This document shows positions 1,103-39,580 of a stretch of DNA of 64,000 bases, piece by piece. Position 1 is the stretch's first letter. Each line of letters begins with the position of its first letter. This stretch comes from a virus. The notes under the pieces were generated by a model that worked only from the letters and a program-made list of their open reading frames with translations, did no database searches and was not told the DNA's origin. The stretch is from IMG/VR virus record IMGVR_UViG_3300036770_002019, positions 1-64,000 of that record; one strand, written 5' to 3'. A program made the translations under genes and the position numbers.

Positions 1103-1133
1103 TTTGCAAACTACCAGAATAATAGTATATTTG
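1103..1133 (+). promoter_or_regulatory. Bacteroidota-type promoter, upstream copy
   Basis: TTTG at 1103-1106, 19-bp spacer, TATATTTG at 1126-1133: an exact match to the Bacteroidota consensus (TTTG at -33, TAnnTTTG at -7). The expected start is near 1140. Only about 60 nt later comes a terminator, so this promoter would make a very short RNA unless read-through occurs. The sequence between 995 and this promoter holds no other recognisable feature. Confidence 0.75.
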
Positions 1134-1165
1134 CATGTCTCACACCCGACTATTAAAGCAGTTTA

Positions 1166-1200
1166 AAATCCCTTAACCAAACGTGGTTGGGGATTTTTTT
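1166..1200 (+). terminator. Intrinsic terminator or attenuator
   Basis: AATCCC (1167-1172) pairs with GGGATT (1190-1195); AACCA (1175-1179) pairs with TGGTT (1184-1188) inside the same hairpin; eight T's follow. It lies directly downstream of one consensus promoter and upstream of another, so it separates a tiny transcript from the main one or acts as an attenuator. Confidence 0.8.
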
Positions 1201-1212
1201 TGTCTAAACATA

Positions 1213-1242
1213 TTGGCTAATAAATTCTTTTACATATATTTG
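1213..1242 (+). promoter_or_regulatory. Bacteroidota-type promoter, downstream copy
   Basis: TTGG near 1213-1216, 18-bp spacer, TATATTTG at 1235-1242. The -7 box and the following GCA match the promoter at 1126-1136. Transcription would start near 1249 and run through the structured segment into the fibre-like gene. Confidence 0.7.
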
Positions 1243-1249
1243 CAGCACT

Positions 1250-1480
1250 GCCTTACTGAAAGATCACCCTCGATGGCGAAAGTAGATAGAGGGTCAGAAG
1301 TCGGGTTGTAGACTGCGTAGTTGAAATAACACTAAAACATAGCGGTTGAGATGTCCCCGATAGCAGTAAAAAAAGCATCAATATAAACTCAGGGTGGGAT
1401 CAGACTATAGGCTGAAAGAAATGTCCCCACGTAGGCTAAAAACGGCTGAGCGAAATTTGATGTTAATCAGAACTCAAGGG
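1250..1480 (+). ncRNA. Candidate structured RNA or structured 5' leader, no known family recognised
   Basis: A roughly 230-nt segment with no ORF, clearly richer in G and C than its surroundings, starting where the promoter at 1213-1242 predicts. Helices found by hand: 1266-1271/1289-1294, 1312-1316/1363-1367, 1374-1381/1457-1464 (8 bp), 1388-1392/1446-1450, 1394-1398/1426-1430 and 1400-1403/1412-1415; the last four nest into one long arm. ATGTCCCC occurs twice (1351-1358, 1421-1428) followed by a similar TAG..TAAAAA..GC pattern, as if two related domains lie in tandem. A GGGGG run (1478-1482) just before the next gene could pair with the free CCCC of the first domain. It may be a stand-alone RNA or a leader controlling the next gene. 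Confidence 0.55.
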
Positions 1481-1511
1481 GGTTATTGTGTCTTGTAACA
1501 AGCAAAGAAGA

Positions 1512-3005
1512 ATGAGTTTATTTATTTTCAGTAAAGCTAAAATCACTTCTAAATCTGTAGACGTAGGAGAAACAGACATAGACTTATACGCCCCACTAAT
1601 ATCTAACCTCACAAACATTACAAGTACTCTAGGGGTAGTAACATTACACTTCAAAGATAGTGGTCCATACTCTAACTTTACTGGGGGAACATCAAACATT
1701 AGAGGATACGAGTACGCTCAAGTAAATCTAGAAGTTAATAACGGTAACGAGCAAGAAGTCATAAAAGACATAGCTCAAGCTCTCCTATCTAAAAAAACAA
1801 TTATCCTAGATTTTGTAACTAGGAACATATCCATAAACAACATCAAATCTATCCTATCCATAAAAAGATTTGATACCCCAACAATACTAACTACAGACCC
1901 ATCTTCAGGAGGAGGACTACCAGTAGGTGGGGACTTAGATCAAGTACTAACCAAACTATCTTCAACAGATGGGGATGTAGATTGGGTATACCCACACACA
2001 CTATTCATAACAGTTAGAAATACTTCTGGGGGAACACTACAAAAAGGAACCCCAGTTCACGCTACAGGAGTTACAGGTACAGTCCCTGACGTAATAGCTG
2101 CAGACGCATCTATCCCTTCAGCTATGCCTGCAACTTACGTTCTAAACGAATCAATAGCTGACAACGCTCAGGGAGTAGCAATAATAGTTGGGACAATTAC
2201 TGGGGTAGATACTTCAACATTCTCAGCTGGGGATGTTGTCTATGTAGCTTCAGGTGGGGGATTCACTAACGTAAAACCTACAGGGACAAACCTAATTCAA
2301 AACCTTGGGGTAGTAACACGATCAAACGTAACTACAGGCTCAGGGGTTGTTTACGGATCAGGAAGATCTAACGATGTCCCTAACCTCCCAACAGGGAAGT
2401 TCTTTATAGGATCAGCTACTAACACAATAGAATCAGCCTACACCCTCCCAACTGCAGATGGGGCAAGCAATCAAATACTAACAACAGATGGGGCAGGTGC
2501 TGTAACCTTTCAAAATCCTAACCCATTAGTTGTATATTCTGACGCTAACCAAATTGATCATACTGGGAGCACATCTAACACATTGATGACTTCTTTCTTA
2601 CTCCCAGGTAACTCACTAGACGTTGGGGATTTATTTTACTTAGTTTCAAGAACTAATCGCCCAACATCTCAGTCAACAAACGCTAACATCCGATATTACG
2701 TAAATACCTCAAACTCTTTATCTGGGGCTACCCTAATAGGTACTGGACCTCAAATGTCAAACACTGCTAGATATTCAGCTTTTGAAAGAACTTACGCCAT
2801 TCTTAATCAAACTACAGATACGAATGCATTCGGGTCAACATCTCTTATCTTAACAGATATAAGTACAACCACTATTGCATTCTCAACACTTGCTGTAGAC
2901 TGGAGTACTGATCAATACGTAATAATAGCTGGGCAGCTTGCTAACATTGCAGACACAATTTCAGTAATATACTTCTTTGCAGAAATAACTAAACAAAAAG
3001 TATAA
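1512..3005 (+). CDS. Phage fibre- or spike-like protein
   Basis: About 497 residues, rich in Ser, Thr, Asn and Gly, with no membrane segment. The middle part carries a motif set common in phage tail-fibre and virion decoration proteins: a block starting TLQKGTPVHATGVTG, then SAGDVVYVASGGGFTNVKP, then GSGVVYGSGRSNDVPNLPTG. The C-terminal third is a beta-rich module. The frame is also open from a GTG at 1488 preceded by AGGGGG; I chose the ATG at 1512 because it begins the conserved-looking part (MSLFIFSK). It is the first gene behind the structured leader and is joined to its successor by a stop/start overlap. Probably a fibre or receptor-contact protein; the exact virion position cannot be told. 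Confidence 0.75.
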   Translation: MSLFIFSKAKITSKSVDVGETDIDLYAPLISNLTNITSTLGVVTLHFKDSGPYSNFTGGTSNIRGYEYAQVNLEVNNGNEQEVIKDIAQALLSKKTIILDFVTRNISINNIKSILSIKRFDTPTILTTDPSSGGGLPVGGDLDQVLTKLSSTDGDVDWVYPHTLFITVRNTSGGTLQKGTPVHATGVTGTVPDVIAADASIPSAMPATYVLNESIADNAQGVAIIVGTITGVDTSTFSAGDVVYVASGGGFTNVKPTGTNLIQNLGVVTRSNVTTGSGVVYGSGRSNDVPNLPTGKFFIGSATNTIESAYTLPTADGASNQILTTDGAGAVTFQNPNPLVVYSDANQIDHTGSTSNTLMTSFLLPGNSLDVGDLFYLVSRTNRPTSQSTNANIRYYVNTSNSLSGATLIGTGPQMSNTARYSAFERTYAILNQTTDTNAFGSTSLILTDISTTTIAFSTLAVDWSTDQYVIIAGQLANIADTISVIYFFAEITKQKV

Positions 3006-3214
3006 TGACCATCCCTCAGCAACTAATCTACAGTAACAATCAAGTTACTTGGAATGACAGAACTAGAACGATAGATCAGATAGATGAATTCAATGACGAA
3101 TCTATTCACTTAACTCTTGAAGGAACTACATACTTTTTCTACGTTCAGTATACAACAGTTAACAACATCAAATACAACAACTCAACAGAATTAATAGCAG
3201 CCTTATCACAATGA
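3005..3214 (+). CDS. Hypothetical protein, 69 aa
   Basis: Starts on the last base of the previous stop codon (TAATG) and ends in an ATGA overlap with the next small gene, so translation is coupled on both sides. Acidic and aromatic, with a beta-hairpin-like stretch (LTLEGTTYFFYVQYT). No family recognised; position suggests a small virion or fibre-linked protein. Confidence 0.6.
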   Translation: MTIPQQLIYSNNQVTWNDRTRTIDQIDEFNDESIHLTLEGTTYFFYVQYTTVNNIKYNNSTELIAALSQ

Positions 3215-3339
3215 AAACAATATCAAACATAAAGCAAGACAGAAATGTTAGTAGACCTAACATTCACTCTAAAACAAAAACTAGTTCTAACAAAAACTCT
3301 AAGAACTACAGAAAACCATATAAAGGGCAAGGACGATGA
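3211..3339 (+). CDS. Small basic protein, 42 aa
   Basis: Reads MKTISNIKQDRN ... KPYKGQGR and stops at 3339. It is rich in Lys, Arg, Asn and Ser with almost no hydrophobic residues, so probably unstructured and nucleic-acid binding. Support comes from exact ATGA overlaps at both ends (3211-3214 and 3336-3339), the style of joining used throughout this operon. It fills what would otherwise be the only gap between 1512 and 4440. Confidence 0.55.
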   Translation: MKTISNIKQDRNVSRPNIHSKTKTSSNKNSKNYRKPYKGQGR

Positions 3340-3695
3340 ACCTAAAACATTTCAAACTCTCAGAATTCGACTCCCCAGACCTACCAGGTTCAGGGGAAAG
3401 AATGGATGAAGACTTTCTTAAACTACTAGACAAAGCTAGATCAATAGCTAACACCCCATTCAAAATTAACTCTGGGTATAGAACACCATCTCACAACAGT
3501 AAAGTTGGGGGAAAATCTAGTTCTTCTCACTTAAAAGGAATGGCTGCTGACATTCATTGCAATGATGATGCATCCAGATCTTTAATCGTACAAGCTCTAA
3601 TAGAAGTTGGGTTTACTAGAATCGGGATAGCTAAAACCTTTATTCACGTAGACAATGATAAAGCTAAAAATTCTAATCGTATTTGGGTTTATTAG
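3336..3695 (+). CDS. Endolysin, M15-family peptidase
   Basis: A 119-residue zinc peptidase of the M15 (VanY / D-Ala-D-Ala carboxypeptidase-like) type, expected to cut peptidoglycan cross-links at lysis. Visible ligands: H65 and D72 in SSHLKGMAADI, H104 in HVD; INSGYRTPSHNSKVGG is the usual upstream signature of the family. There is no signal peptide, so it would need a holin; a candidate holin is at 25744-26196. The gene starts in an ATGA overlap, and its last 41 bases also hold the start and signal peptide of the next gene in another frame. Confidence 0.85.
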   Translation: MNLKHFKLSEFDSPDLPGSGERMDEDFLKLLDKARSIANTPFKINSGYRTPSHNSKVGGKSSSSHLKGMAADIHCNDDASRSLIVQALIEVGFTRIGIAKTFIHVDNDKAKNSNRIWVY

Positions 3696-4440
3696 TTTAT
3701 CGTTATTCTCTCAATGTGAATACACACATATAACTTCTCTCCCATTCTCAGAAACATTCTGCCACGAGTATAATGACTGTAACTTTGTCGCAAATATTTA
3801 CACAATTAACGACAACGACTACGGCTGTTGGAGTTGTATTAACAACCCTCATTACTACGTAATAACCCCAGAGGTAGATATGTACGTAGTTCTAGATATT
3901 GTACCTAACCTATTCAGTCATTTTTCATCAAATACTGAACCACAAGTCCCAGGTTTTATACTGTTTAATGGCTGCCCAAATAACGGGGGAGAAACATTGT
4001 TTAGACCGTGGAGCTATTCAAACGGGGCTTGTTGGAATTGGGGTGTTTTAGACATTTACTGCGGATGGAGTCAATCAACAAATGCCCCTAATCTTAATCA
4101 AGGGTGTGTAACTTCTACCCCAAGTTATACAGGAATGGCTCATGAAGTAACTATGGGTTTTAATTTACTAGCTAACAACGAGTACTGGTTCTGCGTCTAC
4201 CCTCAAGGCGGTTGCCCACCGTTTACCTCAACATGTAACTGGGGATGCATAGACGTAAGCTTTTCAGGATTAACATTTCTTGAACTAAACAACTACCCCC
4301 CAAGTAACCCCCAAGTACCTACTCAAGATACTAGTACACAGCCTCGTTTTGTAAAGCTACATATACCGAACATAGGAATAATTATCAGAGACACTCAAAC
4401 TGGGAAAACCTACAACACACTAATGCAAGAAGTTAATTAG
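3655..4440 (+). CDS. Secreted cysteine-rich protein
   Basis: 261 residues. The N-terminus has a lysine-flanked hydrophobic segment (LKILIVFGFISLSLFS) followed by QCEYTH, a typical type I signal peptide; no clear lipobox. The mature part is rich in Cys, Trp, Tyr and Asn (for example CPNNGG and CNWGCIDVSF) and looks like extracellular disulfide-bonded domains of Flavobacteriia surface proteins. The start lies within the endolysin gene, 41 bases before its end. Position beside the endolysin suggests a role at the outer membrane during lysis or in blocking superinfection; both are guesses. A host-derived secreted protein is the alternative. Confidence 0.65.
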   Translation: MIKLKILIVFGFISLSLFSQCEYTHITSLPFSETFCHEYNDCNFVANIYTINDNDYGCWSCINNPHYYVITPEVDMYVVLDIVPNLFSHFSSNTEPQVPGFILFNGCPNNGGETLFRPWSYSNGACWNWGVLDIYCGWSQSTNAPNLNQGCVTSTPSYTGMAHEVTMGFNLLANNEYWFCVYPQGGCPPFTSTCNWGCIDVSFSGLTFLELNNYPPSNPQVPTQDTSTQPRFVKLHIPNIGIIIRDTQTGKTYNTLMQEVN

Positions 4441-5009: not shown

Positions 5010-5714
5010 ATGACTAATAAAAAAGTACTCATATTTATACCTGTGTGGGGTAGATTCCCAGAAACTAAACTCACATATCAAGGAGTGCATAGAATTCAAA
5101 AAATTCTAAAAGAAGAAAACATTGATTCTCAAGTACTTGTAGTATCCTCAGAAAAAGAACACACAGAATTAGCACTTGAGCATAAATTCTTAGTAACTGA
5201 GTGTGATAACTTCCCAATATCAGATAAACATAACTGTGGACTGGACTATGCCATGTCTTTACAGTGGGACTATCTCCTACAAATGGGGAGTAACAATCTA
5301 CTCTCAAACATATACATCAGATTCGTAGCTGCAGCAATACGAGAAAATTACAAAATGTTTGGGGGGAGATTATTCTACAACATACTCCCATGCAAAACTC
5401 AAATGACTCATTTTAAAACTAGAGCCCCATACAAACTATCAGGAGTTGGGAGAGGAATAAGAAGAGACATTATAGAAGACAGATTAAAAATAGGTCCAGT
5501 ATGGGATCAGAATCTAAACAAAGGATTAGATAAAAGTTCTAGAGAAAACTTAACTACTCCAGAAGATATAGTTGCAATTACAACAACCTCACCTCCCTCA
5601 ATCGTAGATATACGCACAAATGAAGATATTAACGATATGAGCTCTAATCCTAGACCAGTAGACAAAGAATTGTTTGTAAAATGGTTCCCAGAACTAAAAG
5701 ATTTGTTTACATAA
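5010..5714 (+). CDS. Glycosyltransferase-like protein (GT2-type fold)
   Basis: 234 residues. The N-terminus (KKVLIFIPVWGRFPETK) is the first beta strand and nucleotide-binding loop of GT-A glycosyltransferases; NCGLDYAMSLQWDYLLQMGS matches the family region where a near-conserved Asn and the metal-binding segment lie, although a clear DxD is replaced by MGSNN. It would move a sugar onto DNA, a virion protein or the host surface; the substrate cannot be read. The C-terminal 60 residues are low-complexity. Start: the ATG at 5010 (MTNKKV) rather than the one at 4989, which lies inside the promoter repeat. Single-gene unit with its own promoter. Confidence 0.6.
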   Translation: MTNKKVLIFIPVWGRFPETKLTYQGVHRIQKILKEENIDSQVLVVSSEKEHTELALEHKFLVTECDNFPISDKHNCGLDYAMSLQWDYLLQMGSNNLLSNIYIRFVAAAIRENYKMFGGRLFYNILPCKTQMTHFKTRAPYKLSGVGRGIRRDIIEDRLKIGPVWDQNLNKGLDKSSRENLTTPEDIVAITTTSPPSIVDIRTNEDINDMSSNPRPVDKELFVKWFPELKDLFT

Positions 5715-5734
5715 CAACCTTTTTTATATCTTTG
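5702..5734 (+). promoter_or_regulatory. Bacteroidota-type promoter
   Basis: TTTG at 5702-5705, 21-bp spacer, TATCTTTG at 5727-5734, an exact TAnnTTTG. The start would be near 5742, just upstream of the GroES-like ATG at 5754. The bases around the box (TTTGTCCCAAAT) resemble the two repeat promoters upstream. It probably drives the run of overlapping genes from 5754 into the terminase. Confidence 0.7.
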
Positions 5735-5753
5735 TCCCAAATCATACATAAAT

Positions 5754-6038
5754 ATGGGACAAAATACAACAATCAATTTCAACCCAACAAGAGATTGGGT
5801 TGTTCTTCCGTTAATTAAGAAAAATCAAACTGAATCTGGTTTGTACTTAACTAACGATAAGCTCTTAAAAACCAACATCTTAAAAGTAGTAGCTGTAGGA
5901 CCTGACTGCAAAGTTAAAGTTGGGGATACAGTACTAATTCACCCAAACTCTGAAGGATTAATTATTGATCTTGAAGAAGGGCAATTTGTAATGGTTAATG
6001 AATTCATGATCTGCGGAACAATCACTACAACATCATGA
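5754..6038 (+). CDS. GroES-like co-chaperonin
   Basis: 94 residues, the usual Cpn10 length. The order of elements fits GroES: PTRDWVVLPLIKK (first strand), ESGLYLT at the mobile-loop position, ILKVVAVGPDCKVKVGDTVLI (central barrel), and FVMVNEFMICGTI (last strand). Phage co-chaperonins such as T4 gp31 pair with host GroEL to fold the capsid protein; the same role, or folding of the giant cargo proteins, is inferred here. It heads an operon of tightly overlapping genes leading to the terminase and has its own consensus promoter. The family call rests on the pattern of conserved positions seen by eye. Confidence 0.75.
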   Translation: MGQNTTINFNPTRDWVVLPLIKKNQTESGLYLTNDKLLKTNILKVVAVGPDCKVKVGDTVLIHPNSEGLIIDLEEGQFVMVNEFMICGTITTTS

Positions 6039-20359: not shown

Positions 20360-23300
20360 ATGAGATTATTTTACGCACAGTCTGGGGATAATAAAGTTAC
20401 GGTAACAGCACCGTTTAATACGTTCACATCTAAATCATCTTTTGATGCTTTATATGGGGTAAAGCCTTACGCGTATACAGATGGTGATGGTAAAAGACAT
20501 GAGTTTAAGTCAACAGATTTTCAAAGTATAAACTACTATCCACAAAACAACGGACACTACTACATAGAGATTTTATTCTCAGCAAGCTTTACACCGAAGA
20601 ATGGGGCAATTCTTCATCTTAAAGCAATGTTTGAGTCCAAAGCTGAGCAAGTATTTACACTTCCATATGTAAAACAAAGCTCTGTAAAAGATGGGGAAGC
20701 CAGCGTTCAACAAGCTACAATAGCTATTACTAGAGAGGCTACTACTACAATAGCAAACACAGCATACAAAGTATATGTAAATTCTCAATTAGTTGAAACT
20801 AAGGCTATTCAGTCAAAAGCATTTAGTGGGGATATAAACTTATATCAAAACCCTGCGGATTCTGTTATTGAGTTTGTTGGGGTAACTAGTCAGTCAGAAC
20901 TAATCCCACAGTATCTTAACAACAACAAAGGTAAGTTCTTAACTAGTTCTGACTTCCTTGCAACTATTAATAACGAATCTTCTTACTTCTACGTATTTAC
21001 AGATAGACTATCTACAGAACCATTTGTAGTAGCTAATAAAGTAGGGTGTTTAGACGCAACAGCTAGCAATTACAATATTGCAGCTAAACCGCAGTTTAAT
21101 AACAACAGCTGTATATACGATTACAGAGAACCTAGAAATGTAGTAATTACAACTACTGTAGCATCTTCAAAGTTCCCAAATGTAACTATAACATATTCAG
21201 AAACTAACTTAGATAGTGCTAGTTATGACAATGCGGCTAACTTTACATCCTCTGTATCCATTAACGGGGCTACTGCAACTACGTTAACAACTACGGTCAA
21301 TGTAGAAGATGATGTTACAACATTATTTATTAAAGGTGAAAATGCCCCAGCATCAAGTAACTTAGATTCTTTAGTTGGGATTGATCTCCCATTTGCAAGA
21401 ATAACAGTTCTAGACAATGTTAATTCAGAAGATAGATCTTTCTTCTTCCCAACATTCAGAGCAACATCGAGTGGATGTGTAGATAACACAGCACTTAACT
21501 ATGAAGCAGGATCAACTCCTTGTACAAACTGCTGTTTATACTGCAACGATTTAGTTAATGGTCTGCAGTCAATATCATTTAACGGTCCTTTAGGATTTTC
21601 AAGTAGTAATGATGTTACCAATGATGATAATACAACTGTCTATGGAAGTATAGATATAGTATTTTCAGAACCAACTGAGTTTTTTAACAACCTCAGTAAC
21701 TTGCTAGTTAGCATGTCTAATACTTATTGGACAATTAATTACTACAATGTAAATCAAGTAGTTTTACCACAATCTCAGGGACTACAAGCAACTATATCTG
21801 GATCAGCACTTATAAATGACACAAACGATGCAGGAAGTGCTGCACAAATACAATTCGTAACCCCACCATCTAATAACTCTGGTTTATTCCCAGGAAATCA
21901 ATACTACGCAGAGTATGTATTTAATAATGGGAGTGGGTGCACATTTTATGCATATGCTTTATTTACAGTCCCATTTAATGGATGTCTAGACCCGTCAGCT
22001 ACTAATTACTCACCTTTACCAGGAAACACAGGGTTAGGAAATTGCACATACAGCTCAGATCAAACAGATTGTACACAATCAATTATAGCATCTATTACAC
22101 AACCTACTGTAATAACAAATGCATATGCTTTAGCTAGCTTAACAGTATTTGGGCAGGCTTCTGATGGAGTCAATGCAGATGTTTATGGAGAGTATACAAT
22201 ACTTTACAGTCTATACGAAATTAGTAGCGGGGCATTTATTGGTACTTACGTAGTAGATTCTGCAGTAGTTGTAGGACCTGGTAACCCATTTGTTACGTCA
22301 ATATCTTTACCCCCAAACACTTCAGCTACAATAACTATCACAGAACTTAATTCTAGTTGTAGTGAAGTTCTTCAAATATTCCATCCTGGGATAGTTCAAG
22401 TATTTGGGTGCACAGATCCTCTAGCCGTAAATTACAATTCGACTGCAACAGCAGAGAATGGTTCATGTGTATACTGTGACCAACTAGACTTAAGAGCTTT
22501 ATCTTTTACAAATGCTAGTGGTTCATGCTCATCGTCAAACTCAGATGGGACTATAACATTTGCAGTAACTAATGCCCCTGGGACATTCTATATTGTAATA
22601 GTACCGCTAATTGCCCCAGCTTACCAGCTCCCCCCTAACCAACTTATAGCTACTAACTTATCTGCAGGTATATATACTGCACAAGTAGTAGTTAATATGG
22701 GTCCAGGTATCAACTGTATTATAGACCTAAATGAATCAATAGGTATAGGAGTAACTACAAGTGGATGTGGCTGTACAAACCCATTAGCTGTAAACTTCAA
22801 TCCATTAGCAACTGAAGATGATGGAAGTTGTATAATTTTAGGGTGTACGGACGAATTAGCAATTAATTACTCCCCAAACGCTACTGTATCTGACGGATCT
22901 TGTATATACAACGTCAACCCAATAGAACCTGCGTGCATTCCAAACAGTGTAGATAACACTAATACTTACGATGTTACATTAAGTAACATACGTAGATGTC
23001 TTTCAAAAGAAGGAACTACACTTCTATTTAAAATACGTGGTGGGGTTAAGTGTGATACTACAGATCAAATAAAAATTACTTTAGTAACTTATTTACTTGG
23101 GAGATTAGGATTAGATTGTTTGTATAACTGTAACTACACATTCGACTACAATGGTCAAGAGATTGATTGCGAAAATCTTTGGACTCTTGGGGGACCTAGT
23201 GGTCCTGAGCTAGAATGGGATACTACTACAATCTATGCAGCTGGAGATATGATTAGATATACATCTAATGGAATTACTAGTTACTACACTACAATAGAGG

Positions 23301-23530
23301 CAGGGCAAGCTTTATTACCCCCACCAGCAGAGCCTTTAAAATGGATAAGATGTCAGGATTATTCATTACCTTCGGGAACAGAAACATATCTAAATACTTT
23401 CATTAACTTTGCAAGAAAGTTTTGTTTAGTTTGTTTTTCAGACCCACTACCTGTAGCTCAATCCATAAGTGTAGAAAACAATTTACTTGGGGGAATAACT
23501 TTAGAAAACGGGGATAACATACAATTATAA
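20360..23530 (+). CDS. Large fibre or adhesin with GCTDPxAxNY repeats
   Basis: 1056 residues, Asn/Thr/Ser-rich, beta-structured. At least six copies of the module GCxDxxAxNYxxxAxxxxxxSC are visible, near residues 229, 372, 535, 683, 805 and 832; clear ones read FGCTDPLAVNYNSTATAENG and LGCTDELAINYSPNATVSDG. Such repeats are frequent in secreted and surface proteins of Flavobacteriia, so the phage appears to use a host-type extracellular module. The C-terminus (about 900-1056) is a separate domain with its own Cys pattern (CDTTDQ, CLYNCNY). Likely receptor-binding fibre. TAATG overlap with the next gene. Confidence 0.65.
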   Translation: MRLFYAQSGDNKVTVTAPFNTFTSKSSFDALYGVKPYAYTDGDGKRHEFKSTDFQSINYYPQNNGHYYIEILFSASFTPKNGAILHLKAMFESKAEQVFTLPYVKQSSVKDGEASVQQATIAITREATTTIANTAYKVYVNSQLVETKAIQSKAFSGDINLYQNPADSVIEFVGVTSQSELIPQYLNNNKGKFLTSSDFLATINNESSYFYVFTDRLSTEPFVVANKVGCLDATASNYNIAAKPQFNNNSCIYDYREPRNVVITTTVASSKFPNVTITYSETNLDSASYDNAANFTSSVSINGATATTLTTTVNVEDDVTTLFIKGENAPASSNLDSLVGIDLPFARITVLDNVNSEDRSFFFPTFRATSSGCVDNTALNYEAGSTPCTNCCLYCNDLVNGLQSISFNGPLGFSSSNDVTNDDNTTVYGSIDIVFSEPTEFFNNLSNLLVSMSNTYWTINYYNVNQVVLPQSQGLQATISGSALINDTNDAGSAAQIQFVTPPSNNSGLFPGNQYYAEYVFNNGSGCTFYAYALFTVPFNGCLDPSATNYSPLPGNTGLGNCTYSSDQTDCTQSIIASITQPTVITNAYALASLTVFGQASDGVNADVYGEYTILYSLYEISSGAFIGTYVVDSAVVVGPGNPFVTSISLPPNTSATITITELNSSCSEVLQIFHPGIVQVFGCTDPLAVNYNSTATAENGSCVYCDQLDLRALSFTNASGSCSSSNSDGTITFAVTNAPGTFYIVIVPLIAPAYQLPPNQLIATNLSAGIYTAQVVVNMGPGINCIIDLNESIGIGVTTSGCGCTNPLAVNFNPLATEDDGSCIILGCTDELAINYSPNATVSDGSCIYNVNPIEPACIPNSVDNTNTYDVTLSNIRRCLSKEGTTLLFKIRGGVKCDTTDQIKITLVTYLLGRLGLDCLYNCNYTFDYNGQEIDCENLWTLGGPSGPELEWDTTTIYAAGDMIRYTSNGITSYYTTIEAGQALLPPPAEPLKWIRCQDYSLPSGTETYLNTFINFARKFCLVCFSDPLPVAQSISVENNLLGGITLENGDNIQL

Positions 23531-24933
23531 TGGCTACAATAACTAACCTAGCAGCTCTAACAAAAACTAACGTAACCACTAATGATTACTTGTTAGTAGC
23601 TAACTCAGCTAAACAAACCAATACTAAGTTTCAGCTTTCTACTTTATTCCCAACAGTTCAAACAAAAGCTGGGGCTTCTGGAGCTGACTTGTTTGTAGAT
23701 ATTACAGATAAAAATGTAATCAATCTTAAAGGTATTGAGTCTGCAAATAATAAAATTACAGTTACTACAGCTGCTAACGATATTGTACTAACTCTCGCAG
23801 AAGCTAATATAGATCTAGCTAATTGTGACAATACTACCTCAACATTTCTATCTAGTGTCAATCTTACATCTAATGTAACAGGTACTCTCCCAGTAGCTAA
23901 TGGGGGTACAAACGCTACATCCTTTTTAGATAAAGCTGTTGTTATAACGCAAGCTTCTGGTACTGACACTCTTAGCTCTTTGGCTATGACTACTAACGGT
24001 CAATTGTTAATTGGGGGTACTAGCGGTCCACAAGTAGCTACGTTAACTGCAGGTACTAACATCACTATAACTAATGGGGATGGGGCTATTACTATCAATT
24101 CATCTTTAGCATCTGTATCCTCAGATCTAGATATGAATAACAACGACATAGATCTTGGAACAGGCTATATTAGTTCAGATGGTAATAGTAATGGTGTTAG
24201 AGTTACAGGAAATAATGCATACGTAGGTACTGCAGCATCTTATTTTAACTCTGCGGTACTTAATCTAAGTGGGGGAATAGATCTACTCACAAATACATCT
24301 CACACCATTAAAGTAGTAGCAGGAACAACTCCTGGAACACTAACTGTACAAGGACAAGATACTACTACTACAAATGGTAATGGGGGTAATTTAACTTTAT
24401 CTGCAGGAGATGCAGACGGCAGTGGTACAGGTGGACAACTAAATCTTTATGGAGGGGATACTGGATCTGGGACAGGGGGCAGTATTAAACTTATTACTTC
24501 AGTAGCAGGTACATATACTGACGCTATAACTATAGATGGGAGTTCTGACGTTACTGTAAATAACGGTAGTTTAATTATTGCTCAAGCTACTGAAGGATTA
24601 GTACATACTAACAAAGGAGCTGTAACACAGGCTACTAGCCACGCAACTGGGGTTACTGTAAATGCAACTTCAGGAATTATAACATTAGCAGGGGTAGCCC
24701 TGAATGCTGCTGCAGAAGCAGAGTTTACAGTAACAAATGGTGCTGTAACTACAGGATCTTTGATACTTCTAACAGTACAATGCCCAGCTGCAGCATCAGA
24801 GACAGATAATGCAACTTTAGTAGCTCAACTGAGTGGGGTAAGTAATGGAAGTTTTAACATCCGTCTTACTAACCCAGGAGCTGGAAATACATCAACCAAC
24901 GCACACAAAATAAACTTCTTAGTTATAAATTAA
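23530..24933 (+). CDS. Tail-fibre protein
   Basis: 467 residues. It carries standard phage-fibre strings: VTGTLPVANGGTNATS near residue 115-130, QLLIGGTSGPQVATLTAGTN, ITNGDGAITI, then glycine-rich turns (NGGNLTLSAGDADGSGTGGQ). The C-terminal 100 residues (AAEAEFTVTNGAVTTGSLIL) form a compact domain typical of fibre tips. It likely forms trimeric fibres with the preceding gene product; start overlaps the previous stop (TAATG). Confidence 0.75.
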   Translation: MATITNLAALTKTNVTTNDYLLVANSAKQTNTKFQLSTLFPTVQTKAGASGADLFVDITDKNVINLKGIESANNKITVTTAANDIVLTLAEANIDLANCDNTTSTFLSSVNLTSNVTGTLPVANGGTNATSFLDKAVVITQASGTDTLSSLAMTTNGQLLIGGTSGPQVATLTAGTNITITNGDGAITINSSLASVSSDLDMNNNDIDLGTGYISSDGNSNGVRVTGNNAYVGTAASYFNSAVLNLSGGIDLLTNTSHTIKVVAGTTPGTLTVQGQDTTTTNGNGGNLTLSAGDADGSGTGGQLNLYGGDTGSGTGGSIKLITSVAGTYTDAITIDGSSDVTVNNGSLIIAQATEGLVHTNKGAVTQATSHATGVTVNATSGIITLAGVALNAAAEAEFTVTNGAVTTGSLILLTVQCPAAASETDNATLVAQLSGVSNGSFNIRLTNPGAGNTSTNAHKINFLVIN

Positions 24934-24943
24934 TCGCAAACAC

Positions 24944-25348
24944 ATGACACAAATTACAGGAACTAACAGAGAGTTTTTACAAATTTTAAAAGCTCTTGAA
25001 TCAGTAAAAACCTTAAAAGGTAAAACTTTTGCACTTCTAGTTGCTAAAAATATTAGCAGTATTACAGAACATCTTCAACCTATCGAAAAAGCTTCTATCC
25101 CTTCTAAAGACTTTCAAGAGCTTTCAGTAAAAGTTCACAAACTTATCGAAGAAGAAAAGTCAGAAGAAATAGAGAAAATTGAAAGTGAGCATGTTGAAAT
25201 AATTGAAGAACGTAAACATCAATTAGACAATGTTGAGAAGATGCTGAATATGGAAAGCAGTGTAGGAGTTAATTTAATAAGTGAAGAACATTTACCTAGT
25301 GATATCACAGCAGATCAAATTTATGGGCTGCTTAAAATCTTAAAATAA
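24944..25348 (+). CDS. Hypothetical protein with coiled coil, 134 aa
   Basis: Helical; residues 65-100 (KLIEEEKSEEIEKIESEHVE) form a strongly charged coiled coil. No family recognised. It lies between fibre genes and a small beta-rich protein; a fibre-assembly or tail-linked role is plausible but not shown. Confidence 0.5.
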   Translation: MTQITGTNREFLQILKALESVKTLKGKTFALLVAKNISSITEHLQPIEKASIPSKDFQELSVKVHKLIEEEKSEEIEKIESEHVEIIEERKHQLDNVEKMLNMESSVGVNLISEEHLPSDITADQIYGLLKILK

Positions 25349-25740
25349 TGGCTGCAATTAATTTCAAAGTAGAATTAAAATCATCTGGGCTATTATCCGC
25401 CCCACTATTATTATTTGCTGCAGATACAATTGTAGCTACAGGAGTAGTTGCTAAAGCAGCTAAGCTTATAACAGCTGTTAATGGGGCAGCAGTTACATTA
25501 TTCCCCAAAGCAGACTTTACAGATGCTGACGGTCAAGCCCTTGTCTTCATAAAAAATACAGGCAGTACTTACGATCTATTTGTAGAAGCTGGTACTGATG
25601 TAGAGTTTATTAAACTAAAACCTGGGCAATTTGCAGCCTTTCCGTGGTACACAGATAACAGTTCTGGGCAGGACCTTAAAGTCTATGCTAGTAATGCATC
25701 TGGTACTACTGTAGATGCCACATTAATTGAAATAACTTAA
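25348..25740 (+). CDS. Small beta-rich structural protein, 130 aa
   Basis: Starts on the last base of the previous stop. Ala/Val/Thr-rich with alternating hydrophobic residues (ALVFIKNTGSTYDLFVEAG, FIKLKPGQFAAFPWY), the pattern of small phage decoration or fibre-adaptor proteins. No catalytic motif. Family not identified. Confidence 0.5.
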   Translation: MAAINFKVELKSSGLLSAPLLLFAADTIVATGVVAKAAKLITAVNGAAVTLFPKADFTDADGQALVFIKNTGSTYDLFVEAGTDVEFIKLKPGQFAAFPWYTDNSSGQDLKVYASNASGTTVDATLIEIT

Positions 25741-25743
25741 GTT

Positions 25744-26196
25744 ATGAGTGGAGTATTAGGAAGAATATTTGGGGGTTTAGCTTCTCAAGCTTCAACTATC
25801 ATTGATGAGGTAGTTACAACTCAAGAAGAAAAACTTGAGTTAAAAATGAAGCTTGAGCAACTAATCATGGATGCTGAACTTGCAGCAGACCAAGAAATAA
25901 CCAAACGCTGGGAAGTGGATATGGTTAATGGTAATTGGTTAAGTAAGAGCATTCGACCTCTGACACTAGCCTTCCTAGTAATAGCTACAGTGTTACTTGT
26001 ATTTATTGATGCAGGTGCTATAAACTTTGAAGTTAAAGAACACTGGGTTAACCTACTTGAACTAGTTTTGATTACAGTAATAGGAGCCTACTTTGGTGGG
26101 AGATCTTATGAAAAATCAAGAATTATTGTAAATGAAACTAGGTCTAGAAAAGAAGAAAGACATGAAAGAAGAAATAAAAGACTTTCTGAGGACTAA
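25744..26196 (+). CDS. Holin candidate (3TM-holin-like family)
   Basis: 150 residues. Amphipathic N-terminal half with charged helices, then two membrane segments (about 72-92, PLTLAFLVIATVLLVFI; 101-119, WVNLLELVLITVIGAYFGG) and a highly basic tail (RSRKEERHERRNKR). The RPLTL lead into the first segment and the GAYFGGRSYEK exit are typical of the phage 'holin of 3TMs' family, here with two clear spans. It would make the inner-membrane hole for the endolysin at 3336, although the genes are far apart. Confidence 0.6.
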   Translation: MSGVLGRIFGGLASQASTIIDEVVTTQEEKLELKMKLEQLIMDAELAADQEITKRWEVDMVNGNWLSKSIRPLTLAFLVIATVLLVFIDAGAINFEVKEHWVNLLELVLITVIGAYFGGRSYEKSRIIVNETRSRKEERHERRNKRLSED

Positions 26197-27277
26197 CCCA
26201 GGGTATCTTAAAACAAGTATAGAAAGAATATCACACAGAGTAAACTGCAGTGATTTAAATCTATGCAGAGACGCTTTGAATGAAGTTAAGTTTGAACTTA
26301 AAAACAAGAACGTAAATGTAATAAGTGAGTTTAATAAACACTTGCAAGATAATGATATTCATCCTGACGATGTAATAAGTGTAAAGTATTGGCAAACAGC
26401 TTCTGGTAAACAAAGATTCTCAATCGTAACAAAGAATGAGCAGAATTCCGTACAAGACATTAAAGAGGAAATACAAAACTTTGCAAAACTTCACAGTACG
26501 AATGTACCAACAGTACTACGATCTTTTGATATTTCTAAACCGATAGCTTACGAAATATCTCTCCCAGACCTTCATTATGGGAAGATGCATTCTAAGACAC
26601 TCAATGAAATTGAATCTGAATTTTTACAAGTTATACACAACCTTGTAGACCAAGCTGTAAATTTAGACATTGAGAAGTTTATACTCCCAATTGGGAATGA
26701 TGGTATGAACTCTGAAGGAATGCGGCAGACAACTACTAAAGGTACTCCACAGCAAGACTCTGCAGGATGGAAAGAAACATTTAGAGGGTATTGGAACCTA
26801 ATAGTAAGAGCAATAGACTACTTAAAAGAAATTGCCCCAGTGGATGTAATAATTATATCTGGGAATCACGATTACGAAAGAATGTTCTATGTGGGGGATG
26901 TACTTGCAGGATGGTATAGAAATGATGAAAATGTTGTTATAGATAATTCAGAATCTTCTCGTAAATACATTGAGTATGGAGTAAATATGATTATGTTTAC
27001 ACATGGGGATAAAGAAAAGCCTAATGACATCCCATTAATAATGGCTACTGAACAACCAGAAATGTTTGCAAAGGCTTCTCACAGAGAAGCTCATTGTGGG
27101 CACTTTCACAAAGAAATGCTAAATGAGTACAGGGGAGTTAAAGTCAGATTTATACCTAGTATTTGCCCTAATGATGAGTGGCACAAACTCATGGGGTATG
27201 AGGCTAAACGAACAGGGCAAGCTTTTATTTGGTGCAAAAAAACTGGATTCTATGGATACTTCCAAACAAACCTCTGA
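26162..27277 (+). CDS. Calcineurin-like metallophosphoesterase with N-terminal helical domain
   Basis: 371 residues from MKEEIKDFLRTNPGYL (an upstream ATG at 26132 is possible). The five metal-binding motifs of the family appear in order: DLHYGK, LPIGNDG, ISGNHDYE, MFTHGDKE and CGHFHKE. Such enzymes cut phosphodiester or phosphomonoester bonds with two metal ions; SbcD/Mre11-like nuclease action on DNA is a reasonable guess. The first 70 residues look like a helix-turn-helix. The gene sits in the virion operon after the holin, which is an odd place for a DNA-repair enzyme, so it could be carried in the particle or act on host DNA. Confidence 0.7.
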   Translation: MKEEIKDFLRTNPGYLKTSIERISHRVNCSDLNLCRDALNEVKFELKNKNVNVISEFNKHLQDNDIHPDDVISVKYWQTASGKQRFSIVTKNEQNSVQDIKEEIQNFAKLHSTNVPTVLRSFDISKPIAYEISLPDLHYGKMHSKTLNEIESEFLQVIHNLVDQAVNLDIEKFILPIGNDGMNSEGMRQTTTKGTPQQDSAGWKETFRGYWNLIVRAIDYLKEIAPVDVIIISGNHDYERMFYVGDVLAGWYRNDENVVIDNSESSRKYIEYGVNMIMFTHGDKEKPNDIPLIMATEQPEMFAKASHREAHCGHFHKEMLNEYRGVKVRFIPSICPNDEWHKLMGYEAKRTGQAFIWCKKTGFYGYFQTNL

Positions 27278-27536
27278 TGAGGATTTCTCTTACTATGAAG
27301 AGGATGAAATATTGGATGAAGCATATTACAATGCTTATCTAATAATTACCAATAGAATGACTTTAGATGAATTAATAACTTCTAAAGGGGAAATAACATT
27401 CATTCCATATGATCCTGGAGTACCAGAAACAATAGAACTGATTTTAGATGATATGATTGATTATTTTTCATCAACTGAAGAATACGAAATATGTGCAGAG
27501 TTAGTAAAAGTTAAAGAGAAATTAAATGACACTTGA
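27252..27536 (+). CDS. Acidic hypothetical protein, 94 aa
   Basis: Starts MDTSKQTSDEDFSYY inside the end of the phosphoesterase gene. Strongly acidic (EEDEILDEAYYNAY, LILDDMIDYFSS). The upstream part of the frame (from 27123) is a shadow of the enzyme gene. Strong negative charge hints at a DNA mimic or inhibitor of the preceding enzyme, but this is speculation. Confidence 0.5.
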   Translation: MDTSKQTSDEDFSYYEEDEILDEAYYNAYLIITNRMTLDELITSKGEITFIPYDPGVPETIELILDDMIDYFSSTEEYEICAELVKVKEKLNDT

Positions 27537-28191
27537 TGAAATTGCATACAACCTTCTAAATCTAGTTCGCGGAGGTAGATCTAATCACGATGAAAACATC
27601 TCGCTTGATCAAATTAAATTTAATATCAAGCATTACAGAGCTGTATTCATTCGTAGAGATTTTGCACGCAATGGACTTATTACACGGCACTTAGAGCAAG
27701 ATCTTGGGTGCCTTAATCTTATTAGGGTAGACGCATCTAAGTGTTGTTCTTTACCTTCTACTTGCCCTGTATACAGAACAGAATTACCTCTCCCTAAAAC
27801 GGTTAGATTTAATTTCAAAGAAGCTATTACCTACACAGGTGATATTACAGGATTAGGGCGTATCCCAATGGTACAACCTTATGAAATAGCATATATTCCT
27901 TACGATAAGCACACAAGCAACAATCCTAAAACTTATATGATTGAAGACTACTTGTATGTCTATAATCCTAAAGGTATGGATGTTATAAATGTACGTGGGA
28001 TATTCGAAGATCCTGAAGAAGTGCAAAGATTTAAAACTTGTGATGGACCTTGCTATGATGAAAACTTCTCATTCCCCATGCCAATGGATATGGTTAGTTT
28101 AATAACTGCAGGACTACTAAATGGAGAACTAAAACTACTGGCAGGATCATTTACAGATGATGAGAATGACAGACAACAAGATAGAGAATAA
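27526..28191 (+). CDS. Connector or neck protein candidate, 221 aa
   Basis: The N-terminus (MTLDEIAYNLLNLVRGGRSN, ISLDQIKFNIKHYRAVFIRR) is typical of small crAss-like neck/ring proteins. The rest is beta-rich with scattered Cys (ASKCCSLPSTCP) and ends in a charged tail. It precedes small structural genes and the second ring candidate at 30759. Assignment rests on the N-terminal pattern and order. Confidence 0.55.
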   Translation: MTLDEIAYNLLNLVRGGRSNHDENISLDQIKFNIKHYRAVFIRRDFARNGLITRHLEQDLGCLNLIRVDASKCCSLPSTCPVYRTELPLPKTVRFNFKEAITYTGDITGLGRIPMVQPYEIAYIPYDKHTSNNPKTYMIEDYLYVYNPKGMDVINVRGIFEDPEEVQRFKTCDGPCYDENFSFPMPMDMVSLITAGLLNGELKLLAGSFTDDENDRQQDRE

Positions 28192-28481
28192 TGAATACAA
28201 ACGAAGAAAGATTGCTAAACGCAATCAAAAACCTTACAAGAAATTCTTTAGGTCAGTGTGGATCTATTATCATAGATGACACTGTAGAGCATGTAGGTCC
28301 ATATACAGCAATAACAGCTATTGGAACTGCTGCAGCAATCATTGATACCTCTGAGTGTGATTTAGGTCCTTTAGAAGATCAACCAGCAACAATTACTATA
28401 CCGCAAGGTGTAACAATATTTGGGGAGTTTAACTCTATCGAACTAGATTCAGGAGTTGTAATTGCGTACAAACAATGCTAA
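28191..28481 (+). CDS. Small structural protein, 96 aa
   Basis: Start overlaps the previous stop (TAATG). The C-terminal half (ITIPQGVTIFGEFNSIELDSGVVIAYK) was read in two parts, TIPQGVTIFGEF and NSIELDSGVVIAY; this pattern occurs in small phage fibre-adaptor proteins. Likely part of the neck or fibre attachment; no catalytic features. Confidence 0.55.
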   Translation: MNTNEERLLNAIKNLTRNSLGQCGSIIIDDTVEHVGPYTAITAIGTAAAIIDTSECDLGPLEDQPATITIPQGVTIFGEFNSIELDSGVVIAYKQC

Positions 28482-28969
28482 AATTAGGAACAAGTGTTCA
28501 GAGCGTAGTTAGTAGAGGGGGCATTACTAAAGTATGCCTTAATCCTAACTATACTTCAGATTTTAGTGCTGGGGTAGATGGTTGGACAGGAGATACAGGT
28601 ATTAGCGCTATTATAGGAAATAGAGATTCTATTGGAGGTTTGAATGACAACTTAGGTGTTAGATTTGCTGTAGGCATCCCTATTATCACTAAAACCCTAG
28701 CTGAAGAAGTTTCATCAGGATGTACATATACATACAGTCTTAGGGTATTCATACCAACTGGCAATAAAGATGTAACGTATATTAGTAGACTCCTAATAGG
28801 GGGAGAAGAAATACCAATTTCAGGTGAAGCCATTGCAACCAATACTTGGACTTTATTTACTGGAACTTTTACTGCATCACAAACATTAACTAGCTTCGGG
28901 ATAGAGTTTAATGCTGGTAGTGCAAGTTCTGAATTAGCTTACTTAAGAGAGATATCATTAACACTTTAA
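28475..28969 (+). CDS. Beta-sandwich protein, carbohydrate-binding-like
   Basis: 164 residues with a jelly-roll pattern: GWTGDTGISAIIGNRDS, TYTYSLRVFIPTGNKDV, NTWTLFTGTFTASQTL, LREISLTL. This arrangement is common in carbohydrate-binding modules on tail fibres and glycosidases. It could bind host-surface glycans. No enzyme residues are evident. Confidence 0.5.
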   Translation: MLKLGTSVQSVVSRGGITKVCLNPNYTSDFSAGVDGWTGDTGISAIIGNRDSIGGLNDNLGVRFAVGIPIITKTLAEEVSSGCTYTYSLRVFIPTGNKDVTYISRLLIGGEEIPISGEAIATNTWTLFTGTFTASQTLTSFGIEFNAGSASSELAYLREISLTL

Positions 28970-28973
28970 GATT

Positions 28974-29243
28974 ATGTCCTCACCAGCTTGGCAACGAAAA
29001 GAAGGCAAAAACCCTAAAGGAGGGTTAAATGCAAAAGGTAGAGCAAGTTATAAAGCTGCTAATCCTGGATCTAAATTAGGAGCTCCACAACCAAAAGGAG
29101 GAAAAAGACGTAATTCTTTTTGTTCTAGGATGTGCGGAATGAAAAGTAAATTGACTTCAAAGAAAACAGCAAGCGACCCAAATTCAAGAATAAATAAATC
29201 ATTAAGAATCTGGAACTGCGGTTCCTGCAGCAATTGGAAATAA
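28974..29243 (+). CDS. Small basic phage protein (DUF6321-like)
   Basis: 89 residues, very basic. PAWQRKEGKNPKGGLNAKGR at the N-terminus, KGGKRRNSFCSRMCGMKSKL in the middle and SLRIWNCGSCSNWK at the end are strings I know from a widespread family of small phage proteins of unknown function. Positive charge and Gly/Lys content suggest DNA or RNA binding in the virion. The family number is from memory. Confidence 0.6.
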   Translation: MSSPAWQRKEGKNPKGGLNAKGRASYKAANPGSKLGAPQPKGGKRRNSFCSRMCGMKSKLTSKKTASDPNSRINKSLRIWNCGSCSNWK

Positions 29244-29452
29244 TGGAGATACTAACCGTGTATGAAATCGTAATTATTGCCTCAGCTTTAGTGGGGACTT
29301 ATGTAAAAATGAATATTGAGATTAATAAGGTTAAATCTCGTATATTTGTTTTAGAACAAAATCACAGTGAAATAACAACAATGCTAAGAAAATTAGATAA
29401 AGATCTTACAGAGATTAAAATCTTATTAGCACGTAAACAATTAGACACATGA
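29243..29452 (+). CDS. Small membrane protein with coiled coil
   Basis: 69 residues. One N-terminal membrane segment (VYEIVIIASALVGTYVKM) followed by a coiled coil (SRIFVLEQNHSEITTMLRKL). The start is the ATG overlapping the previous stop, not the TTG at 29234. Size and plan fit an inner-membrane spanin or an accessory holin; either is unproven. ATGA overlap with the next gene. Confidence 0.5.
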   Translation: MEILTVYEIVIIASALVGTYVKMNIEINKVKSRIFVLEQNHSEITTMLRKLDKDLTEIKILLARKQLDT

Positions 29453-29748
29453 TGACACTAATTATAATCATTTCAATTATCTCAGTACTAGGTGCTGTAG
29501 TTATAATTTATTTAGCTAACCTTCATAACGGGGGCATTGTAGATAACAATAAAAACTTTATCTCAGACAATGTAGACGATAAAGCTAAAGAAATAAAAAA
29601 AGAAATTAATCGACGTGTAGAAAACGTTAAACTTGAAGTAGAAGATGTAACTACAGCTATAGGAAATGCTATAGATGGTTTAGATGACATCTCAAAAGCT
29701 GCAGCAGGGGCTAACAGAAAAGGACGTCCAAAACATAAGCAGAAATGA
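29449..29748 (+). CDS. Small membrane protein with charged helical tail
   Basis: 99 residues: an N-terminal membrane segment (LIIIISIISVLGAVVIIYLA), then a long charged helix (DDKAKEIKKEINRRVENVK) and a basic end (GRPKHKQK). It pairs with the preceding membrane protein by an ATGA overlap. Together they could be lysis-related partners or membrane anchors for virion assembly. Confidence 0.5.
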   Translation: MMTLIIIISIISVLGAVVIIYLANLHNGGIVDNNKNFISDNVDDKAKEIKKEINRRVENVKLEVEDVTTAIGNAIDGLDDISKAAAGANRKGRPKHKQK

Positions 29749-30287
29749 AACAAATGCTTAAACGTAAAGACGGGTCTTATTCTCAAAGAGGGCTTTGGGA
29801 TAACATTCGCGCAAACAAAGGGTCAGGTAAAAAACCTACCAAAGACATGCTTAAACAAGAAAATAAAATTAAAGAAATGAACTCAAAACCTAAATCAAAA
29901 TCTCCCTCAAAGAAAATGGGTGGAGGATATAAAGCTCCACAATACCAAATGGGTGGGGATATGATTGAACCGTCTAAAGAAGTCAACTTTGATCGTCCTA
30001 TGGCTCAATCAGGCATGGCTAAATCTAAAAAAATGAAGCCAGATTACATTGATATTGACAAAGACGGAAACAAAACAGAGCCGATGAAAAATGCCGCTTC
30101 AAATAAAAAAATGAAAAGCGGAGGAGGCAAATCAATGAAGCCTGGAGGTGGTGGAAGATTTGAAAAACTAGTTGGAGAACTCAAAGGTAAAGGAAAATCT
30201 GAAGATTCAGCTAAAGCAATAGCAGCTTCAATTGGGAGGAAAAAATACGGTAAGTCAAGATTTCAAGAAATGGCTAAAAAAGGATAA
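29745..30287 (+). CDS. Lysine-rich virion protein
   Basis: 180 residues, strongly basic, with Lys/Met/Gly-rich low-complexity stretches (KSKSPSKKMGGGYKAPQ, KKMKSGGGKSMKPGGGGRF) and a compact C-terminal helical part (SAKAIAASIGRKKYGKSRFQ) known from other phage virion proteins. It probably binds packaged DNA or a negatively charged neighbour. ATGA overlap with the previous gene and TAATG with the next. Confidence 0.5.
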   Translation: MKQMLKRKDGSYSQRGLWDNIRANKGSGKKPTKDMLKQENKIKEMNSKPKSKSPSKKMGGGYKAPQYQMGGDMIEPSKEVNFDRPMAQSGMAKSKKMKPDYIDIDKDGNKTEPMKNAASNKKMKSGGGKSMKPGGGGRFEKLVGELKGKGKSEDSAKAIAASIGRKKYGKSRFQEMAKKG

Positions 30288-30772
30288 TGCATACATTGAC
30301 AGACATATATAAACACTACAGAGCTAATACAGCATCACCCGTAGACAAAGCTACGTTTAAAAACATCTGTGAGGAGTTTAATATGTCTGTCATAGAAAAT
30401 TTGATATTAGAAGGGAAAAGCTTTAACATGAGAAATAACCTTTCTAATATCTCTGTTCGTCGTATAGAACGTAATCCTTCATGTCCTACAATAGATTGGT
30501 GGGAAAGTAATAAGTACAAACAAGAGCTTATCGAAGAAGGGGTAAAGATATTTGATCCAGAAACAGGGGAAGGAAAGAAATGGTTTATATACTATACAGA
30601 TCCTTGGTATTGTAAGTATCATTGGGAAAAACATAAGTGTAAAATCCCTAACAAAACTGTTTATAGATTTACCCCAACAAGAGGACTAAAAGGAAATAAA
30701 GAAAAACTAACAGCGCTACTAAAAGAAGACGAGCTTGCTTACTTAAAATTCAAAAAACATGGCAATATATAA
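30287..30772 (+). CDS. Conserved phage hypothetical, 161 aa
   Basis: N-terminal helices, then ISVRRIERNPSCPTIDWWES and IYYTDPWYCKYHWEKHKCK, with C-terminal VYRFTPTRGLKGNKEKLTAL. This set of strings recurs in phage proteins near neck genes; function unknown. Aromatic- and Cys-rich centre; two Cys could bind metal with the nearby His. Confidence 0.5.
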   Translation: MHTLTDIYKHYRANTASPVDKATFKNICEEFNMSVIENLILEGKSFNMRNNLSNISVRRIERNPSCPTIDWWESNKYKQELIEEGVKIFDPETGEGKKWFIYYTDPWYCKYHWEKHKCKIPNKTVYRFTPTRGLKGNKEKLTALLKEDELAYLKFKKHGNI

Positions 30773-31649
30773 AACTATATCTAGTAAGGTTATCTTGCGA
30801 AAGATCTTTCGAGATATTAAACCTAATCACGATAATTGGATTGATGATGCCATTGAATGGATTGGGGAAGCATTAGAGCACATTGGGAGTTCAACGCAGC
30901 TAGATACTAAAGTTTGTGTTCTCCCAATTTCTAATTACAAAGGGTTACTCCCAAATGATTTCTATTACTCGCAAATGGTTGGGGTAAACAATGCTGTAGC
31001 CCCATCTATTGAAACAGAACTCGATGAGTTATTGTCTCAAGTAAATGATATTCAAGCTCAGTTAGCAGCTAACCCTAACCAAGACTTGACTTATCAAATG
31101 AGAGAACTTAACTCTCGAATCGTAGTTCTTGAGAATATCTACATGTCAGATAGCTCTATGGTTACACCATTAGCTTACTGTACTACAGCATTCCCAAATG
31201 CAGAAGCTTGCCCAGAATGTGTAAATCAAACTACCACAGTCAAAGAATGTTACTTCATTGAAAATGATAGAATTAAAACTTCTTTTGCTTCTGGTAAAGT
31301 TTGTATAAGCTACAAAGCATTCCCAACAGATGAAGATTGTTACCCACTAGTACCAGACGATATTAGTTTCAAAGAAGCTATGTTTTGGTATGTATATAAG
31401 AAAATGCTTTTAGGTGGGGATACACCTGTAGAAAATGGGATAAACTATGTATTTGCCGAACAACAGTGGAAATACTACTGTACACAGGCAAGAAACGCAG
31501 CTAATTACCCAGACATTGATAGATACGAGTCATTTATGAATCAATGGGTTAGACTTATCCCAAACATTAACAGACACTCAGCTGGGTTTGAAAATCTCGG
31601 AACTAGAGAAACATTACATAGAGGATCAGCTAATACTTACGGATTGTGA
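30759..31649 (+). CDS. Ring/neck connector protein candidate
   Basis: 296 residues. The N-terminal half (VILRKIFRDIKPNHDNWIDD, AIEWIGEALEHIGS) and the C-terminal WRYY-like helical segments fit crAss-like neck proteins encoded just before the large muzzle protein. Four Cys in CTTAFPNAEACPECVNQT may bind metal. The stop overlaps the GTG start of the next gene (GTGA). Confidence 0.6.
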   Translation: MAIYKTISSKVILRKIFRDIKPNHDNWIDDAIEWIGEALEHIGSSTQLDTKVCVLPISNYKGLLPNDFYYSQMVGVNNAVAPSIETELDELLSQVNDIQAQLAANPNQDLTYQMRELNSRIVVLENIYMSDSSMVTPLAYCTTAFPNAEACPECVNQTTTVKECYFIENDRIKTSFASGKVCISYKAFPTDEDCYPLVPDDISFKEAMFWYVYKKMLLGGDTPVENGINYVFAEQQWKYYCTQARNAANYPDIDRYESFMNQWVRLIPNINRHSAGFENLGTRETLHRGSANTYGL

Positions 31650-39576: not shown

Positions 39577-39580
39577 TACT

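Follow-up and report, generated by a model that had tools for sequence, protein, structure and literature searches.

The packaging RNA (pRNA) of phage phi29 is a structured RNA made as a separate transcript. The putRNA of phage HK022 acts in cis from just behind a phage promoter, where it suppresses both intrinsic and Rho-dependent termination without any phage protein, and its effect persists over at least 10 kb (PMC9378689). HK022, an enterobacterial phage, carries two such put sites of ~70 nt in its early operons, each forming two stem-loops. ROOL and GOLLD are phage-encoded, conserved and elaborate RNAs whose function is unknown (PMC12286853), while the manA and wcaG leader motifs are structured RNAs known chiefly from marine metagenomes and from phages (PMC2864571). 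In addition, phage-associated candidates from Bacteroidetes are mentioned in a survey, published in 2021, of structured RNAs across human microbiomes, whose text does not name crAss-like phages (PMC8040213).

The DNA analysed here (the window) comprises bases 1-64000 of a virus record 86,682 bases long, from an uncultured crAss-like phage. Matches to phage families were obtained for its terminase, portal and major head proteins, and by terminase its closest named relatives are Crassvirales phages, at ~42% identity. CrAss-like phages rank with the most abundant phages in the human gut and are widespread in water. To our knowledge, how their late genes are controlled is poorly understood. In crAss001, the host RNA polymerase is thought to transcribe the middle and late genes (PMC8375218).

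An earlier note on this DNA had proposed an unknown structured RNA or leader at 1250-1480. The RNA is there, with an end that lies beyond the proposed one, at about 1492. The family member in the window occupies 1262-1492, and its core (1262-1470) scores 178.8 bits with covariance model R1 and 176.5 bits with model R2. The leader RNA is ~240 nt in size and contains at least six helices and a pseudoknot (Table 1). From the comparison of sequences, it is close to certain that this is a genuine structured RNA family, whose fold is kept through compensatory changes. The family is apparently undescribed, with no relative found. The RNA is most likely a cis-acting 5′ leader that serves the whole rightward operon and probably governs transcription of the virion genes, and we infer that the host RNA polymerase transcribes it within a long virion-gene mRNA.

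Table 1. Coordinates of the leader RNA, its structural parts and its flanking features in the window.
Feature	Position	Strand	Parts	Pairing and support
Bacteroidota-type promoter	1213-1243	+	TTG at 1213, TATATTTGC at 1235; expected start near 1248	
Whole leader RNA element	1248-1492	+		Covariance models R1 / R2 and 3′ motif
P1 hairpin	1266-1294	+	1266-1271 with 1289-1294	99.3% paired; 5/6 pairs changed on both sides
P2	1300-1361	+	1300-1305 with 1356-1361	100% paired (72 sequences); 2 pairs changed on both sides
P2a hairpin within P2	1311-1347	+		90.6% paired; 3/3 pairs changed on both sides; found by mutual information in relatives
Pseudoknot	1350-1468	+	GAU 1350-1352 with AUC 1466-1468	Three pairs
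P3, outer helix of long arm	1375-1463	+	1375-1381 with 1457-1463	98.8% paired; 7/7 pairs changed on both sides
P4	1388-1450	+	1388-1392 with 1446-1450	All five modelled pairs changed on both sides
P5	1394-1430	+	1394-1398 with 1426-1430, then 1403-1405 with 1423-1425	100% paired; 4/8 pairs changed on both sides
Conserved 3′ motif AGGGGGUUAUUGUGUC	1477-1492	+		AGGGG in 72/72 distinct sequences
Fibre-like protein gene, first of operon	1512-3005	+	Likely start ATG 1512	

The consensus promoter that the earlier note had read ahead of the stretch is of the Bacteroidota type and is one of only four sites on the window's + strand that fit the spaced promoter consensus (1103, 1213 and 5702, plus a weak match at 28639). 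Of 70 distinct loci, 58 have a TAnnTT[TC]G promoter 12-45 nt ahead of the RNA core, compared to 2.5% of random places. From the predicted start onwards the stretch is also GC-richer and free of genes, as had been observed: no open frame runs through 1248-1511, and its GC content of 0.437, against 0.366 for the window, exceeds that of 96% of equal-sized windows. Open frames of 190-195 amino acids do cross the element in a few loci, and these look like chance upstream extensions of an amidase frame. The second site, at 1103, belongs to another Bacteroidota-type promoter (window 1103-1200; TTTG at 1103, TATATTTGC at 1126), behind which a terminator hairpin at 1171-1192 with a T run would allow a transcript of ~60 nt preceding the leader promoter. 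Further upstream, an inverted repeat (GGTGGGGTCTTTGAA...TCGAAAACTCC, 1011-1096) with an A/T run behind it is recognisable in loci L002 and L005; it may act as a terminator or as a leader for the leftward block. Within the rightward operon, a promoter-like site precedes a Cpn10-like gene (5702-6035).

The minimum free energy of the single sequence does not differ from that of shuffled sequences (z = 0.05), which means that structure is not demonstrable from one sequence and that the comparative test is decisive. This result was not counted against structure, since the minimum-free-energy test is uninformative for a pseudoknotted RNA. Among the 72 distinct sequences, standard pairs occupy 98.6% of the paired cells, and 23 of 32 pairs have changed on both sides, giving 477 double-change cells compared to 130.8 ± 17.4 in shuffles. 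The covariation score is 0.607 against 0.236 ± 0.008 in shuffles, and it falls to 0.095 or less when the pairing partners are slid by 1-3 columns. The 72-sequence alignment was fitted to the model and is biased towards it; a plain MAFFT alignment of ten sequences still gives 45 double-change cells versus 15.6 and a score of 0.481 versus 0.265. Model-free mutual information places mostly modelled pairs in its top ranks, and it added P2a and the pseudoknot. Family members thus share helices P1-P5 with compensatory changes, together with the 3′ AGGGG motif. The earlier note had made its proposal depend, in advance, on such changes appearing in related crAss-like phages.

The same evidence bears on a reading in which DNA, as a promoter, origin or packaging site, is what is conserved. 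A strand-switch region does lie nearby in most loci, but the compensatory exchanges, the many G-U pairs and the covariation within the pseudoknot agree with pairing in RNA, and the orientation of the element to promoter and operon is fixed. Conservation of DNA instead of RNA is very improbable.

The four nested helices that had been drawn as one long arm all show compensatory changes, the outermost running over 1375-1381/1457-1463 where 1374-1381/1457-1464 had been given, and the helices suspected in the first half are borne out as P1 and P2. The GGG/CCC pairs of P2 are invariant in the 72 sequences. In the window's lineage, P2a pairs GACUGC (1311-1316) with GCGGUU (1342-1347), a window pairing read by eye. 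In P4, two pairs form in 84% of cells and three in 100%. The loop region of P5 contains CUAUAGGCUGA, and this loop motif served as a search key. The pseudoknot joins the bases just 5′ of a conserved UCCCC to those just 3′ of P3; it is paired in 99.5% of cells, with U-A/C-G and U-A/A-U exchanges and 23 double changes versus 5.8 in shuffles. A short hairpin at the 5′ side, P0, ends at the first core base and fits 58 of 71 sequences (8.7 ± 2.8 in shuffles; nine base triplets); no clear longer version was seen in the window, and P0 is not counted as part of it. At the 3′ end, a terminal hairpin GGRUA/URYCC is a possibility, folded by part of the sequences only (mean z ~1.06).

It had also been suggested that two related domains stand in tandem, because ATGTCCCC occurs at 1351-1358 and again at 1421-1428. 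This did not hold in relatives, where only the first CCCC is invariant and the second becomes UUCCUCC or GCCCCC with its own pairing kept. A further suggestion was that a GGGGG near the fibre gene start can pair with a free CCCC. The GGGGG is real (1478-1482), and the AGGGG is kept in every distinct sequence, mostly 7-13 nt downstream of the modelled core; the pairing itself is possible and unproven.

In another reading, the leader is a switch that would sense a ligand or protein and time late gene expression, with P2 (GGG/CCC) and GGGG/CCCC as alternative folds. The invariance of the GGG, the CCCC and the 3′ GGGG is as expected for competing pairings, but invariance without covariation does not prove an alternative pairing, and no terminator or platform that sequesters a start site is evident. 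A switch appears quite unlikely.

No match to the window or to the RNA of ten carrier loci was found in Rfam 15 (4227 families, curated scores), so that no Rfam family covers the RNA, and permissive Rfam scans gave only weak hits far below the curated scores. The only Rfam matches in the ten carrier loci are two unrelated tRNAs in L158, whose two tRNA genes lie near the RNA (387-469 and 1855-1925 (-)). ARAGORN found no tRNA or tmRNA, and the impression that the RNA resembles neither these nor ROOL or GOLLD agrees with both searches. No paper on the RNA family was found among open-access journal articles.

The family comprises ~95 viral contigs, of which 72 distinct sequences were aligned, plus cr118_1, a crAss-like phage of the gut. 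The fibre protein, used as a query, yielded L002, which has the same element at ~81% identity upstream of its fibre gene; L005 and L006 were found by sequence pattern, and further relatives by a terminase scan. A scan with another window protein (3655-4437) found no relatives. Model R1 found the element in more distant phages as well (L046 and the record behind L074), and model R2, built from 12 sequences, matched cr118_1 (NC_055872.1:66610-66803, 72.5 bits, E = 2e-15). A scan with the loop motif CTATAGGCTGANAGAAATG returned 96 viral contigs, and R2 matched every locus searched from them; it also matched all 92 sources of the combined search, which gave the 72 distinct sequences. In bacterial and archaeal genomes, the loop motif occurs only three times, as 19-base chance matches without the structure. 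The R2 search found no element in cr113_1, cr115_1, cr1_1, cr130_1, ProJPt-Bp1, crAss001, cr10_1, cr109_1 and phi14:2; in all of these except phi14:2, the stretch ahead of the terminase was also searched without speed filters. The element was likewise not found in Flavobacterium phages Fpv1 and FpV4, nor in DAC15, Carjivirus communis (BK010471), cr131_1 and cr110_1. The phages scored negative include cultured crAss-like phages, and they may have a diverged version below the reach of the model.

One copy of the RNA is present per genome, both in the window's own record and in 24 of 24 records searched for copy number. A crAss-like TerL is present in 23 of these 24 and lies on the same strand, ~2-17 kb downstream of the RNA by listed coordinates (in G033, only when the record is read as circular). 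Downstream genes share the strand of the RNA (63 of 63 loci). On the upstream side, most genes have the opposite strand in 32 of 40 loci; in the other 8, rightward genes also precede the RNA, which therefore does not open its block in every case. In the window and its closest relatives, the first gene encodes a fibre, and in the window the N-terminus read from the likely ATG aligns with L002 and L006; elsewhere the first gene encodes Amidase_2, DUF5675, a Cpn10-like protein or others. Because the position of the RNA is kept while the first gene changes, control of a single gene is disfavoured and action on the whole transcript is favoured. The earlier proposal of a riboregulator of the late operon fits this conserved position.

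The first gene starts 17-167 nt downstream of the GGGG in the last conserved motif. In many loci, the gap between this GGGG and the start codon is only 17-21 nt and holds no terminator, which makes a separate small RNA less likely than a leader. Ahead of the following start codon, the longest T run measures mostly 1-5. These features argue against a trans-acting phage RNA that is transcribed from the late promoter and then freed by processing, for example a packaging RNA like phi29 pRNA or an RNA that binds a host or phage protein. A compact pseudoknotted fold, a single copy per genome and the proximity of terminase and portal genes would suit such an RNA, as would a possible protein partner: a gene for a very basic small protein adjoins the RNA in 35 loci and was found in carriers only. 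On the other hand, this gene was not found in some carriers, and no Rfam family matches the RNA. A trans-acting RNA is rather unlikely.

In the 35 loci, relatives of the basic gene have their ends 30-130 nt ahead of the RNA core, and the window has its small, very basic gene at 3211-3339 (MKTISNIKQDRNVSRPNIHSKTK...YKGQGR). Its product is a possible RNA-binding partner of the leader RNA. Two other candidate factors were rejected: a TROVE (Ro/Y-RNA-like) protein is absent from the carriers tested and present in crAss001 (NC_049977.1 97428-97901 (-)), and a NusG-type phage factor is absent.

The leader might also shield the 5′ end of the virion-gene mRNA from RNases or recruit ribosomes, which would raise late expression. 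It does occupy the extreme 5′ end of the transcript expected here, ahead of first genes that vary, and AAGGGGGU is similar to a Shine-Dalgarno sequence, allowing for one G-U pair. However, Bacteroidota seldom use Shine-Dalgarno signals, the distance from the GGGG to the start codon is far from uniform, and a shield would need less exact conservation than is observed. Neither role is probable.

A put-like effect of the leader on RNA polymerase is the reading ranked first, ahead of an RNA acting in trans, a leader that protects the mRNA or recruits ribosomes, and a switch; by analogy with putRNA we give it a probability of roughly 0.4. The host RNA polymerase would transcribe the leader as the 5′ end of the virion-gene mRNA, from ~1248 to 59998. 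The nascent leader would fold on leaving the polymerase and, acting in cis on the whole transcript and not on one gene, would make the polymerase elongate past pauses and termination. As with HK022 putRNA, the main target would be Rho action, both on the long untranslated leader and along the ~58 kb operon. The part that moves could be the invariant CCCC, for which both the GGG of P2 and the 3′ GGGG are possible partners. The few promoter-like sites on the + strand and a strong terminator hairpin at the end of the rightward operon (59973-59998, between converging operons) were counted in favour of a put-like effect; a size ~3 times that of putRNA and a place at a virion-gene operon, not at early operons, were counted against it. 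Intrinsic terminators show no excess in the scanned operon parts (all but 21000-41000), so that a need for antitermination would rest on Rho or on distance.

It is possible, if on balance doubtful, that the family represents an undescribed class of large RNA-only elongation controllers, in which one pseudoknotted leader enables the host RNA polymerase to transcribe tens of kb. If true, the principle of put would operate in a different phylum and a different phase of infection, and the leader RNA may be a further natural example of transcription elongation controlled by RNA alone. The newness claimed here is that of the RNA family; were the mechanism put-like, it would be a fresh variation on a known kind. 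In any case, a conserved and strongly covarying RNA at the promoter of the virion-gene operon offers a concrete, testable entry to late-gene control.

Compared with known systems, the leader RNA shares with phi29 pRNA that it is a phage-encoded structured RNA, here ahead of the terminase gene on the same strand. Where pRNA is a separate transcript, the RNA here appears to be a leader, with no terminator behind it, and it matches no Rfam family. ROOL and GOLLD far exceed it in size and are often located close to tRNA islands, whereas the leader RNA lies at an operon promoter, matches neither Rfam model and is not several hundred nt long. The manA and wcaG motifs are also phage leaders, but they are tied to cyanophage metabolic genes, and the leader RNA matches no Rfam family. 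In position, the leader RNA resembles HK022 putL and putR, which are cis-acting structured phage RNAs located behind an operon promoter, independently of the first gene (PMC9378689); in 58 of 70 loci the leader likewise follows a phage promoter directly, and its action in cis is what we infer. HK022 put counters pausing and termination by way of the beta-prime zinc-binding domain, an activity that the leader may share. With ~240 nt, a pseudoknot, one copy, a virion-gene operon and a Bacteroidota-type promoter, the leader RNA is not a member of put, from which it differs in size, architecture and copy number.
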